DNA of 64,000 bases from positions 496,001-560,000 of the forward strand of contig NZ_PPTR01000001.1 of the NCBI RefSeq assembly GCF_003339845.1. The letters run 5' to 3'. The notes under the pieces were generated by a model. It was not told the DNA's origin and searched no databases. It saw only the letters and a program-made list of their open reading frames with translations. Both the position numbers and the translations under genes were made by a program. This stretch comes from Gordonibacter sp. 28C (GTDB lineage Bacteria > Actinomycetota > Coriobacteriia > Coriobacteriales > Eggerthellaceae). Positions 6,484 to 37,845 of this stretch are shown here, one piece after another; positions within the stretch are counted from its first letter, which is position 1; each line of letters begins with the position of its first letter.

Positions 6484-7242
6484 GTGCGCGGAGCCTATCC
6501 GACAAGCCGCAAGCTGGTCATCGCCGACCCCGGCACGTGCATCGGCTGCAAAACCTGCATGGCCGCGTGCCTCATGCGCCACGACGCGCCGGGCGACGTG
6601 CCCGTGCCGCGCCTCACGCTCGTCACCACGCGCACGATATCCGCGCCGGTGGGCTGCCACCACTGCGCCGAGGCCCCTTGCGCCGACGCGTGCCCCACGG
6701 GGTGTCTCTACACCGACGACGAGCATGTGGGCGTGCATCCGGAAAAGTGCATCGGCTGCCGCAACTGCGTCTTGGCCTGCCCTTACGGCGCGGTGGACAT
6801 CGTCACCCGCCCCGCGCCCCCCGAGCCGGAAGCCGACGAATGTCATCCTGAGCGAGCGCGGCGAGTCGAAGGATCCCGCGCGGCGACAGCAGGAAGCGCT
6901 ACGGCTGACGCAGCCCGAGATCCTTCGACTCCGGCGCTTCGCGCCTCCGCTCAGGATGACAATCGGCAACCTGCTACAGCCAAAGCCCCCAAACCCAGCG
7001 CGCGCGACCGCGCGAAGGCGAAGAAGCGCCGCCGCAAGCTGTCGACGGTCATCAAGTGCGACCTGTGCGTCGACCATGCGGACGGCCCGGCGTGCGTGGC
7101 GGCCTGCCCCACGAAGGCCCTGCGCCTCATCGACCCGCAGATGCTGGAGCGCGGCAAGCAGGCCAAGCGGAAAGCCGCCGCCCGCGCGGCGGCGGCCTAC
7201 AGCACCATCGAGCTCAACGCAGACCTAGACGAGGGGGAGTAG
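6484..7242 (+). CDS. Four-cluster [4Fe-4S] ferredoxin subunit (HycB/HydN type) with a repeat-derived insertion
   Basis: Electron-transfer subunit expected to partner the formate dehydrogenase encoded next. Four cysteine sets are visible: CIGCKTCMAAC, CHHCAEAPCADACP, CIGCRNCVLACP and, after an insertion, CDLCVDHADGPACVAACP. The insertion, residues about 120-160, is encoded by a 121-base palindromic repeat (6841-6961) that stays in frame between clusters 3 and 4. GTG at 6484 almost abuts the folD stop, and the fdhF-like gene follows after 4 bases. HycB-like subunits are about 170-220 residues; the extra length here is the insertion and linker. Confidence 0.88.
   Translation: MRGAYPTSRKLVIADPGTCIGCKTCMAACLMRHDAPGDVPVPRLTLVTTRTISAPVGCHHCAEAPCADACPTGCLYTDDEHVGVHPEKCIGCRNCVLACPYGAVDIVTRPAPPEPEADECHPERARRVEGSRAATAGSATADAARDPSTPALRASAQDDNRQPATAKAPKPSARDRAKAKKRRRKLSTVIKCDLCVDHADGPACVAACPTKALRLIDPQMLERGKQAKRKAAARAAAAYSTIELNADLDEGE
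6841..6961. repeat. Palindromic repeat family 1, full copy, inside a ferredoxin gene
   Basis: Arms TGTCATCCTGAGCG (6841-6854) and CGCTCAGGATGACA (6948-6961) are perfect complements; the inner parts TCGAAGGATC and GATCCTTCGA are also complementary. Related copies lie at 9463-9521 and 37729-37845. Confidence 0.9.
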
Positions 7243-7246
7243 CCTC

Positions 7247-9640
7247 ATGGAGAAGCATATGGCGGTGTGCCCGTACTGCGGCGCCGGTTGCAAGATGAAC
7301 CTGGTGGTGGAAAACGGCCTGGTCATCGAGGCAGAAGGTCTGGACGGCATCACGAACGAGGGCGAGCTGTGCCTGAAGGGCCTCTACGGCTACGACTTCA
7401 TCAACGACACGCGCATCCTCACCCCGCGCATCTACCACCCCATGATCCGCCGCGAGAAGGGCGCGCCGCTCGAGCGCGTGAGCTGGGACGAGGCGCTCGA
7501 CTTCACAGCCTCGCGCCTGCGCGCCATCATCGAGGAGAGCGGGTCGGAGGCCGTCATGCTCACCGGCTCCTCGCGCGGCGCCGGCAACGAGGCGAACTAC
7601 GTCATGCAGAAGTTCACGCGCGCGTGCCTGGGCACGAACAACATCGACAACTGCGCGCGCACCTGCCATGCGGCCAGCGTCATCGGACTCATGGAATGCG
7701 TGGGGTCGGGCGCCATGAGCGTGAGCATCCCCGTGCTGGAGCGCACGGACTGCATCCTGCTCATCGGCTACAACCCGGCGGCCAGCCACCCCATCGTGGC
7801 GCGCCGCATCGTGAAGGCGAAGGAGCGCGGCGCCGATCTCATCGTGTGCGACCCGCGCGTCATCGAGTCCGCTCGCATCGCCGACCTCTACCTGCCGCTG
7901 GAGAACGGCTCGAACCTGGCACTCGTGAACGCGCTGGCCTACACCATCATCGACGAGGACCTGGCCGATTGGGATTTCATCGACAACCATACCGAGGGCT
8001 TCGACGCGTGGTGGGAAGTGGTGCAGGAGTACGCGCCCGAGGACGTGGCCGACGTCACGGGCCTCGCGCCCGAGCTCGTCCGCCACGCCGCCCGCCGCTA
8101 TGCCAAGGCCCCCTCGGCCGTGGTGGGCTGGGGGATGGGCGTGACCCAGCACGCGCAGGGCGTGCAGACCGTGCGCGCCATCGCGGCGCTCGCGCTCATC
8201 ACGGGGCACATCGGCCGCCCGAACAGCGGCCTCGCTCCCGTGCGCGGGCAGAACAACGTGCAGGGCTCGTGCGACATGGGCATGTGGCCGAGCCTCTATC
8301 CCGGCTACCAGCGCGTGGACGACCCGGCCGTGCGCGCGAAGTTCGCCGCCGCATGGGGCGTTCCCGAGGAGCGCCTGTCGCTCCAGGAGGGATGGAAGCT
8401 CACCGACCTGCCGCACGGCGTGGCCGAGGGGAAGATCCGCGCGTTTTACAACTTCGGCGAGGACCCGCTGCAAACCGAGCCGGACACGGCGCAGATGCGG
8501 AAAACGCTGGAAGGGCTCGACCTGCTCATCAGCCAGGATATCTTCATGACGCAGACCACCGCGCTGGCCGACGTCGTGCTGCCCGCCACGTCGTGGGGCG
8601 AGCACGACGCCGTGTACACCGCGTCCGACCGCTCGTTCCAACTCACCACCGCCGCGCTGCTGCCTAAGGGCGAGTGCCGCCACGACTGGGAGATATTCGC
8701 CGACCTGTCCACGCGCATGGGCTATCCCATGCATTACGAGAACACGCGCGAGATATGGGATGAGGTGCGCTCGCTCTGCCCACAGTTCGCCGGTGCTTCC
8801 TACGAGAAGATGGCGGGGTTAGGCTACGCGCAGTGGCCCATATACGCGGATGCGGCTGACGACCCCGACAACCACGGCACGTCCGAGCTGTACGCCGGCG
8901 GCGCGTTCACCACGCCCGACGGCAAGGGGCATCTGCAGGCGGCGCACTGGCGCCCGCCCACCGAAGAGCCCGACGAGCGCTACCCGCTCGTGCTGTGCAC
9001 GGTGCGCGAGGTGGGGCACTACTCCTGCCGCTCGATGACCGGCAACTGCAAGGCGCTGGCCGCGCTGGCCGACGAGCCCGGCTACGTGAGCATGAGCCCG
9101 GCCGACGCCGAGGCGCGCGGCATCGAGGAGGAAGAGCTGGTGCAGGTGACGTCGCGCCGCGGGAAGATCGTCGCGCGCGCGGCCATCGACGAGCGCATCA
9201 ACGGCGGCGCCGTGTACATGACCTACCAGTGGTGGGTGGGCAAGTGCAACGAGCTCACGCTGCACGCGGTGGACGGCGAGTCGGGCACGCCCGAGGACAA
9301 GTACAGCGCCTGCCAGGTGGAGGCCATCGCCGACCAACGCGGAGCCGAGGAGCGCCTTGCGGAAGCGTACGCCGAGCTCAAGGCTCGCCTGGCCGCCGAA
9401 GCCGACCGACAGAACCCGCCGGAGAATGCGGAACCGGCAGCGGACGCGGCCGACCCCAACTCTGTCATCCTGAGCGAAGGCGGCGCAGCCGCCGTAGTCG
9501 AAGGATCCCGCGCGGCGACAGCGAACAACTCCTCGGACCCCGCCAGCTCCTCCCCTCCGCCCAGCGCGTTCGCCCCGCACGAGGCCGAAGTCGCGGGCCG
9601 CGCGCTCTACGCGGACGGCGAAGAGGAGACGCTCGTATGA
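7247..9640 (+). CDS. fdhF: FdhF-like molybdopterin formate dehydrogenase, cysteine form
   Basis: Catalytic subunit, expected to interconvert formate and CO2 with a bis-MGD molybdenum or tungsten centre. At 797 residues it is longer than E. coli FdhF (about 715). The N-terminal [4Fe-4S] motif is CPYCGAGC (Cys8, 11, 15) with Cys42. NCARTCH places Cys140 exactly where E. coli FdhF has selenocysteine (codon TGC at 7664-7666), so this is the Cys variant. HDAVYTASDR and GHYSCRSMTGN segments agree with the family. There is no Tat signal, so it is cytoplasmic. The C-terminal tail from about residue 735 is low-complexity and partly encoded by a palindromic repeat. ATGA overlap with the next gene couples their translation. 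Confidence 0.9.
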   Translation: MEKHMAVCPYCGAGCKMNLVVENGLVIEAEGLDGITNEGELCLKGLYGYDFINDTRILTPRIYHPMIRREKGAPLERVSWDEALDFTASRLRAIIEESGSEAVMLTGSSRGAGNEANYVMQKFTRACLGTNNIDNCARTCHAASVIGLMECVGSGAMSVSIPVLERTDCILLIGYNPAASHPIVARRIVKAKERGADLIVCDPRVIESARIADLYLPLENGSNLALVNALAYTIIDEDLADWDFIDNHTEGFDAWWEVVQEYAPEDVADVTGLAPELVRHAARRYAKAPSAVVGWGMGVTQHAQGVQTVRAIAALALITGHIGRPNSGLAPVRGQNNVQGSCDMGMWPSLYPGYQRVDDPAVRAKFAAAWGVPEERLSLQEGWKLTDLPHGVAEGKIRAFYNFGEDPLQTEPDTAQMRKTLEGLDLLISQDIFMTQTTALADVVLPATSWGEHDAVYTASDRSFQLTTAALLPKGECRHDWEIFADLSTRMGYPMHYENTREIWDEVRSLCPQFAGASYEKMAGLGYAQWPIYADAADDPDNHGTSELYAGGAFTTPDGKGHLQAAHWRPPTEEPDERYPLVLCTVREVGHYSCRSMTGNCKALAALADEPGYVSMSPADAEARGIEEEELVQVTSRRGKIVARAAIDERINGGAVYMTYQWWVGKCNELTLHAVDGESGTPEDKYSACQVEAIADQRGAEERLAEAYAELKARLAAEADRQNPPENAEPAADAADPNSVILSEGGAAAVVEGSRAATANNSSDPASSSPPPSAFAPHEAEVAGRALYADGEEETLV
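9463..9521. repeat. Palindromic repeat family 1, half copy, inside the fdhF-like gene
   Basis: Begins TGTCATCCTGAGCG and shares the 25-base segment that starts TCGAAGGATCCCGCG with the copy at 6841-6961. The matching right arm is absent. It encodes roughly residues 739-759. Confidence 0.85.
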
Positions 9641-35988: not shown

Positions 35989-37641
<1,653 letters not shown>

Positions 37642-37728: not shown

Positions 37729-37845
37729 CCCCTGTCATCCTGAGCGGAGGCCGAAGGCCGGAGTCGAAGGATCTTCGGCAAGGGTAGCCGCGCGGCCGAA
37801 GATCCTTCGACTCCGCGCTGCGCGCTCCGCTCAGGATGACAGGGG
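37729..37845. repeat. Palindromic repeat family 1, full copy downstream of groEL
   Basis: 21-base perfect arms (37729-37749, 37825-37845) starting CCCCTGTCATCCTGAG, with an inner complementary pair GTCGAAGGATCTTCGGC/GCCGAAGATCCTTCGAC. Confidence 0.92.

Follow-up and report, generated by a model that had tools for sequence, protein, structure and literature searches.

Repetitive extragenic palindromic (REP)-like repeats are commonly regarded as extragenic and lineage-bound. Here we describe a palindromic repeat in a 64,000-nucleotide stretch of the genome of Gordonibacter sp. 28C (Actinomycetota, Eggerthellaceae; contig NZ_PPTR01000001.1, positions 496,001 to 560,000; hereafter the window), where copies lie in frame inside two adjacent genes, for a HycB/HydN-like ferredoxin and an FdhF-like formate dehydrogenase subunit, and another follows a groEL-like gene. 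We consider it probable that this is a REP-like palindrome present in high copy number and built on the TGTC/CGTC-tagged plan, whose coding copies are neutral passengers in linkers and tails.

The closest described systems are the CGTC/TGTC-tagged REPs (Di Nocera et al. 2013, PMC3733652). These have stems of 8–9 bp, loops of 4–5 nt and a three-base tail that is mostly CCA. CGTC repeats are reported there from five phyla, and the text nowhere mentions Actinobacteria; TGTC is counted as a variant tag, bulged forms are said to have possibly been missed, and flexible linkers are suggested as neutral sites for in-frame palindromes. The present repeat shares the unpaired TGTC tag, the AT-first stem (ATCCT/AGGAT), the inverted dimers, the location close to the ends of genes, where the flanking genes run in one direction or converge, the occasional coding copies and the lack of a dedicated transposase. 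It differs in its 5-bp outer stem, its internal loop and its apical hairpin of 2–6 bp with a loop of about 3 nt. Because its stem and loop lengths fall outside those of the superfamily, we treat it as a variant and do not count it among the members.

Other known systems resemble it in part. The palindromic elements of Rickettsia (RPEs), as summarized in PMC3733652, which classes RPE-4 and RPE-6 as CGTC repeats, also lie in frame in many unrelated proteins; they have another sequence and host, and the present case adds empty sites in a sister species, solved homologues that place the linkers, and a near-identical unit in many phyla. GTAG-type REPs, associated with REP-associated tyrosine transposases (RAYTs), are likewise high-copy hairpin units, single or paired and mostly intergenic (PMC3733652); our repeat has no GTAG tag, and its copy number does not follow Y1_Tnp genes. 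The Coxiella elements QMITE1 and QMITE2 (PMC5896051) are dispersed palindromes overlapping genes, and IS1111 targets the REP of QMITE2 much as an IS110-family element targets the present repeat; they are larger (150–400 bp), with a GTAG-type REP inside QMITE2. REPs have also been described as targets of specific insertion sequences (IS) by Tobes and Pareja (2006, PMC1525189), where both repeat and IS differ from ours. What is added beyond these systems is the unit itself, its spread, and the empty sites and solved homologues that show its coding copies to lie in linkers.

Structure, copy number and spread of the unit

The unit consists of the tag TGTC, the stem strand ATCCT, the first side of an internal loop, an apical mini-hairpin, the second side of the loop, AGGAT and a C. 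The single unit at 9463 folds to this plan, with TGTC unpaired and ATCCT pairing with AGGAT. Two facing units form a hairpin of about 100–130 nt with inverted ends of 14–18 nt, and tandem partial arms are frequent on its outer side. The bases 3′ of AGGAT include CTT, CCC and others. The sequence of the apical mini-hairpin drifts while its pairing is kept through compensating changes: in 35 distinct 22-nt spacers, 170 of the 210 cells at the six apical positions are paired, against 118 on average and 132 at most in 500 shuffles of the columns, and pairing reaches 111/125 for 20-nt spacers (shuffle maximum 88) and 97/100 for 18-nt spacers (maximum 84). A set from other phyla, taken alone, gives 42/55 (36), 26/28 (25), 47/48 (38) and 18/18 (17), shuffle maxima in brackets. 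As spacer sequences may be kin by descent, the shuffles serve as a guide and not as a probability. A known RNA family was ruled out as the identity of the repeat, two tRNAs being the only matches in the window. As a separate observation, a small palindrome, TTCGACAGTCCACTGGACTGTCGAA, is nested beside the outer arm in several copies (G000:C1 near 48130, 343340 and 463000; G066 near 2505100 and 2134430; genomes are designated by number, G000 being that of strain 28C and G066 that of its sister species).

The outer arm, TGTCATCCTGAGCG, occurs five times in the window at up to two mismatches, compared with a mean of 0.63 and a largest value of 3 in shuffles. The whole genome holds 136 exact arms (68 + 68), against none of the reversed control. 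Within the family the distribution is patchy. At least one exact arm is present in 33 of 138 genomes surveyed, and counts jump between close relatives: 136, 180 and 81 in G000, G066 and G065 vs one each in G067 and G068 of the same genus; 150, 9 and 0 in the sisters G028, G029 and G030; 207 in G078 and none in its sisters G077 and G079. High counts were also found in G020 (358) and G124 (100). In a sample of the phylum, 19 of 396 genomes carry an exact arm.

The unit extends well beyond this phylum. A scan of a species-genome collection (257 Gb) for both unit halves returned at least 118 stretches, where about 0.2 would be expected by chance (our own arithmetic, assuming equal base frequencies). 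Among the 80 matches listed, the record titles, from which phylum names were taken, include Acidobacteria, Clostridia, Fibrobacter, Planctomycetes, Patescibacteria groups, Alpha-, Beta-, Gamma- and Deltaproteobacteria, Bacteroidetes, Spirochaetes, Cyanobacteria, Gemmatimonadetes, Verrucomicrobia, Kiritimatiellia, Armatimonadetes, Eremiobacterota, Actinomycetota and others. Most of these records are metagenome-assembled genomes (MAGs); isolates are represented by Bifidobacterium pluvialisilvae, Fodinibius halophilus and Acidobacteriaceae KBS 146. Eighteen such genomes were chosen for a known match, so that the presence of the arm in 18/18 is uninformative and the copy numbers are what informs: 280 exact arms in B. 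pluvialisilvae, 203 in a gammaproteobacterial MAG, 139 in a planctomycete MAG, 84 in Acidobacteriaceae KBS 146, 71 in a Treponemataceae MAG, and 1–2 in Kaiparowitsia and Fodinibius. The reversed control was absent from all 18. In the open-access literature searched, neither the DNA strings of the repeat nor its encoded peptide strings gave a match; on palindromic repeats of Gordonibacter or Eggerthella, none of the 15 papers listed out of 182 was on point, and on REP/RAYT systems across phyla including Firmicutes there was no paper.

Placement in the genome and filled and empty sites

We analyzed 68 clusters in G000, comprising the listed copies and close neighbours in the same stretches, a subset of the copies of the genome. 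Of these, 45 are intergenic and 12 are interior to a gene; a further 5 straddle the end of a gene, and 6 are N-terminal in genes with an uncertain start. Because called coding bases make up 84% of the stretches, 57 of the 68 would be expected in genes, where 18 were observed. The intergenic clusters fall between genes of the same direction in 30 cases, between convergent genes in 9, between divergent genes in 3 and at stretch ends in 3; of the 42 clusters that could be typed, 3 thus lie in divergent gaps, a class that makes up 28% of the intergenic length.

The 12 interior sites are distributed over 11 genes, encoding the ferredoxin, FdhF, PurL, HypF (two sites), PhnJ, Mfd, NadK, a radical-SAM protein, an indolepyruvate-ferredoxin-oxidoreductase-like protein, an Lhr helicase and fumarase, where names finer than the Pfam matches are our own reading. 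The coding copies keep the frame, leave the domains on either side intact and fall in linkers, loops, tails or ends. The first HypF insert (residues 421–493) faces three residues in the solved homologue, that of NadK falls between the stretches matched to its solved homologue, and that of Mfd precedes the RID domain. Frame use is biased: among 18 coding sites, 15 are read as CHPER, two as VILS and one in reverse (15/17, two-sided p 0.0023). The peptide of the CHPER frame is hydrophilic.

Comparison with relatives revealed both filled and empty sites. PurL is reciprocal, the G000 protein carrying a unit at residue 879 where G066 is empty, and G066 a unit elsewhere where G000 is empty. The tail of an ABC transporter has a unit in G066 that G000 lacks, with the stop codon and the overlapping start of the next gene preserved. 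In NadK, a unit is present in 3 of 11 genomes from five genera, and the region spans 42 to 87 residues. In Mfd, the inverted pair was found in G000 only among 12 genomes; a different palindrome, encoding VPIGDSPQLGH, occupies the same Mfd linker in G000 and G066 and is altered in G020 and G055. That different repeats fill the same linkers indicates that these are permissive places. At two further sites filled in G066 only (2414704 and 2134428), the alignments gave no clean junction. Insertion of a mobile repeat is well supported; the earlier note had already called the repeat mobile, which agrees with its dispersal and with the existence of orthologues that lack the insert.

The filled and empty sites also bear on whether the copies spread mainly by recombination or gene conversion among themselves, with transposition rare or past and the family mostly a relic. 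Most examined sites are indeed occupied in both sister species with differing interiors, tandem partial arms are common, and no mobiliser follows copy number. Against it are sites that only one of two sisters has filled, and jumps from 0 to 100–200 arms within a genus; we regard such a history as unlikely, if the most serious competitor.

The copies of the window

The copies in the ferredoxin, in FdhF and after groEL, first described in the earlier note, are all present (Table 1). The run of bases shared by the two coding copies exists as the note had said, at a maximum of 26 nt instead of the 25 given there, and both coding copies were confirmed to be in frame, one between cluster motifs 3 and 4 of the ferredoxin and the other in the C-terminal tail of FdhF. 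The two genes are clustered with those for formate–tetrahydrofolate ligase, cyclodeaminase and FolD.

Table 1. Positions of the repeat copies and their host or neighbouring genes in the window
Feature	Position	Strand	Basis
HycB/HydN-like ferredoxin gene carrying the palindrome (protein residues 120–160)	6484..7242	+	Open reading frame; Fer4 domains; best solved relative HycB3 of hydrogen-dependent CO2 reductase (HDCR), 7qv7, E 1.6e-34
Inverted pair of repeat units, complete, in frame CHPER...VEGS...DPST...SAQDD	6841..6961	+	121 nt; RNA fold -75.3 kcal/mol, z -6.4
Left unit of ferredoxin pair: TGTC tag, outer stem, mini-hairpin, outer stem	6841..6875	+	Sequence; unit definition
Right unit of ferredoxin pair, inverted	6919..6961	-	Sequence; arms
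fdhF-like formate dehydrogenase alpha subunit gene	7247..9640	+	TIGR01591, 814 bits (cut-off 666); formate dehydrogenase H (FDH-H) 1aa6, E 5e-279
Single repeat unit, C-terminal tail of FdhF, frame VILSE	9463..9507	+	45 nt; folds as tag, stem and apical hairpin
groEL-like gene upstream of intergenic copy	36004..37641	+	Gene call; Cpn60_TCP1, E 6.6e-72
Inverted pair, complete, intergenic	37733..37841	+	Starts 91 bases after groEL stop; fold -87.9 kcal/mol, z -12.5

The outer arms of the ferredoxin palindrome (18 nt) are 94% complementary and its inner arms (28 nt) 86%. Between cysteine motifs 3 and 4, where it lies, the protein has 72 residues vs 20 in HycB3 of HDCR. None of 11 readable orthologues from six genera carries the palindrome, the sister species included, whose ferredoxin lacks the insert and is 96–97% identical to that of G000 in the flanks; the linker measures 86 residues in G000 vs 25–51 in these orthologues. 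For this copy, the comparison of orthologues proposed in the earlier note thus favours the note's reading of an insertion. A twelfth orthologue, that of G067, was unreadable, as its assembly has runs of N at the locus. A single-sequence AlphaFold model of the ferredoxin was set aside (mean pLDDT 47.6). In the explanation that we favour as a whole, the ferredoxin copy is probably a young insert of the G000 lineage.

The FdhF unit corresponds to residues 739–754, beyond the end of both the alignment with E. coli FDH-H (717) and the Fdh-alpha model (691); inner-arm-like sequence extends it past 9507 to 9521, giving the 59 bases of the earlier note. Here the comparison of orthologues that the note had proposed gave a different outcome from that for the ferredoxin, and the result named there as refuting, the same peptide in orthologues of distant genera, was obtained in part. 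Among 12 orthologues, the unit is present in G066; G020, G053, G052 and G055 have it at the equivalent site and in that frame, in a varied or decayed form; six lack it and one was unreadable. As 5/12 carry the unit or a decayed form, namely the sister species plus four genomes from two other genera, the FdhF copy is older than the genus or has been renewed. Its DNA is still plainly the repeat, though ancestral to part of the family, and within the same overall explanation it is probably an early insertion that part of the family has inherited. In the genome recorded as Candidatus Gordonibacter avicola, both the FdhF tail and the ferredoxin linker match those of G065 exactly. As a side observation, the FdhF query gave more than 100 matches in each of the G000 and G066 genomes, mostly distant molybdopterin oxidoreductases, an unusually large set.

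The sharing of a VILSEGG/EGGEAAGVEGS-like peptide by FdhF tails of three genera, and of xDDK by ferredoxin linkers of several genera (KDDK or PDDK in other orthologues), would also be expected if these were ancestral protein sequences resembling the repeat by chance. The DNA identity to 136 genomic copies, mostly intergenic, the orthologues without the repeat, among them 11 ferredoxins, and the recurrence of the same peptide in unrelated proteins make such a resemblance extremely improbable.

The earlier note had read the two coding copies as exaptation of a mobile repeat into a protein complex, meaning that the peptides would be kept for a role in formate dehydrogenase, such as spacing two clusters or docking subunits. 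Two adjacent subunits of one operon do have the repeat, and genomes of three genera have retained the peptide of the FdhF tail without a change of frame. Adjacency of two hit genes needs no special cause, since its chance is about 3–12% (11–20 hit genes among some 3,300; our own arithmetic). Moreover, nine or more unrelated proteins have inserts of this type, the ferredoxin of the sister species does without it, half of the FdhF orthologues have no unit and others let it decay, and nothing shows a gain of function. We therefore consider exaptation quite improbable. Judged from sequence, both inserts are most likely passengers, neutral in effect, that add length to a linker and a tail, and not adaptations of the complex.

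Mode of spread and its implications

Two candidate mobilisers were rejected. A Y1 transposase of the RAYT type is absent from G066, G028 and G124, which hold 180, 150 and 100 arms, and its presence does not track copy number. The sole Y1_Tnp gene of G000 adjoins another palindrome, around GTCCCAATTGGGGAC (read from translated flanks), the one that recurs in frame in Mfd; no arm at up to two mismatches was found near this gene except one chance-level match. An IS110-family element of G066 (378-residue transposase, five copies) inserts into the repeat instead of mobilising it: the four copies examined, in G066:C1 near 43000, 186900, 546800 and 2306700, with the fifth near 3856900 left out, all lie at TGTCATCC|TGAGCG inside the repeat arm.

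The inverted ends of the pair recall a miniature inverted-repeat transposable element (MITE), and the repeat could be a MITE of an ordinary insertion sequence with ends beginning TGTCATCCTGAGCG. Single units are very common and complete alone, the aligned site pairs showed no readable duplication, and the IS110 element has the arm as its landing site, not as its own end. Although a parent element was not searched for directly, we judge such an origin improbable.

Under the explanation we prefer, a REP-like repeat with neutral coding copies, units would be copied in trans by some factor, probably one that acts on single-stranded hairpins. Insertions into coding sequence would mostly be lost, and survivors would fall in permissive linkers, mostly in one frame, as the CHPER-type frame would supply a hydrophilic, probably disordered peptide. 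Copying by an enzyme acting in trans on single-stranded hairpins is the most likely route, with recombination between copies as its main rival.

Several observations weigh against this explanation. No mobiliser was found, and Y1_Tnp occurs in 10 of 24 genomes. The aligned pairs yielded no clean target-site duplication. The gene calls behind the placement counts come from a home-made script that judges codon usage, with 10 window genes as its training set. In G020, none of 24 sampled clusters is interior (two are N-terminal and one overlaps a gene end) vs 12 of 68 in G000 (Fisher p 0.03), so the habit of interior insertion is not uniform. Finally, the ferredoxin linker of G053 contains, at the homologous position, an exact copy of the right arm that encodes SAQDDK, which could reflect an older insertion, a hot spot or chance.

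A near-identical unit is thus multi-copy in hosts from many phyla, and in G000 it lies inside about a dozen conserved enzymes, at linkers or loops according to solved structures. We tentatively propose that the unit, TGTCATCCTGAGCG-hairpin-GTCGAAGGATC, moves between and bursts within many phyla with no recognisable transposase of its own, and that in this gut family it may be a standing source of new interdomain linkers, those of the housekeeping enzymes NadK, Mfd, HypF and FdhF being refilled in different species, mostly in the single frame that gives a soluble, harmless peptide. Two old questions become testable: by what means CGTC/TGTC repeats are copied, given that they lack a known transposase, and how linkers in bacterial proteins grow longer. 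For the first, the within-genus pairs G028 vs G030 and G078 vs G077, with 150–200 arms vs none, are natural experiments.

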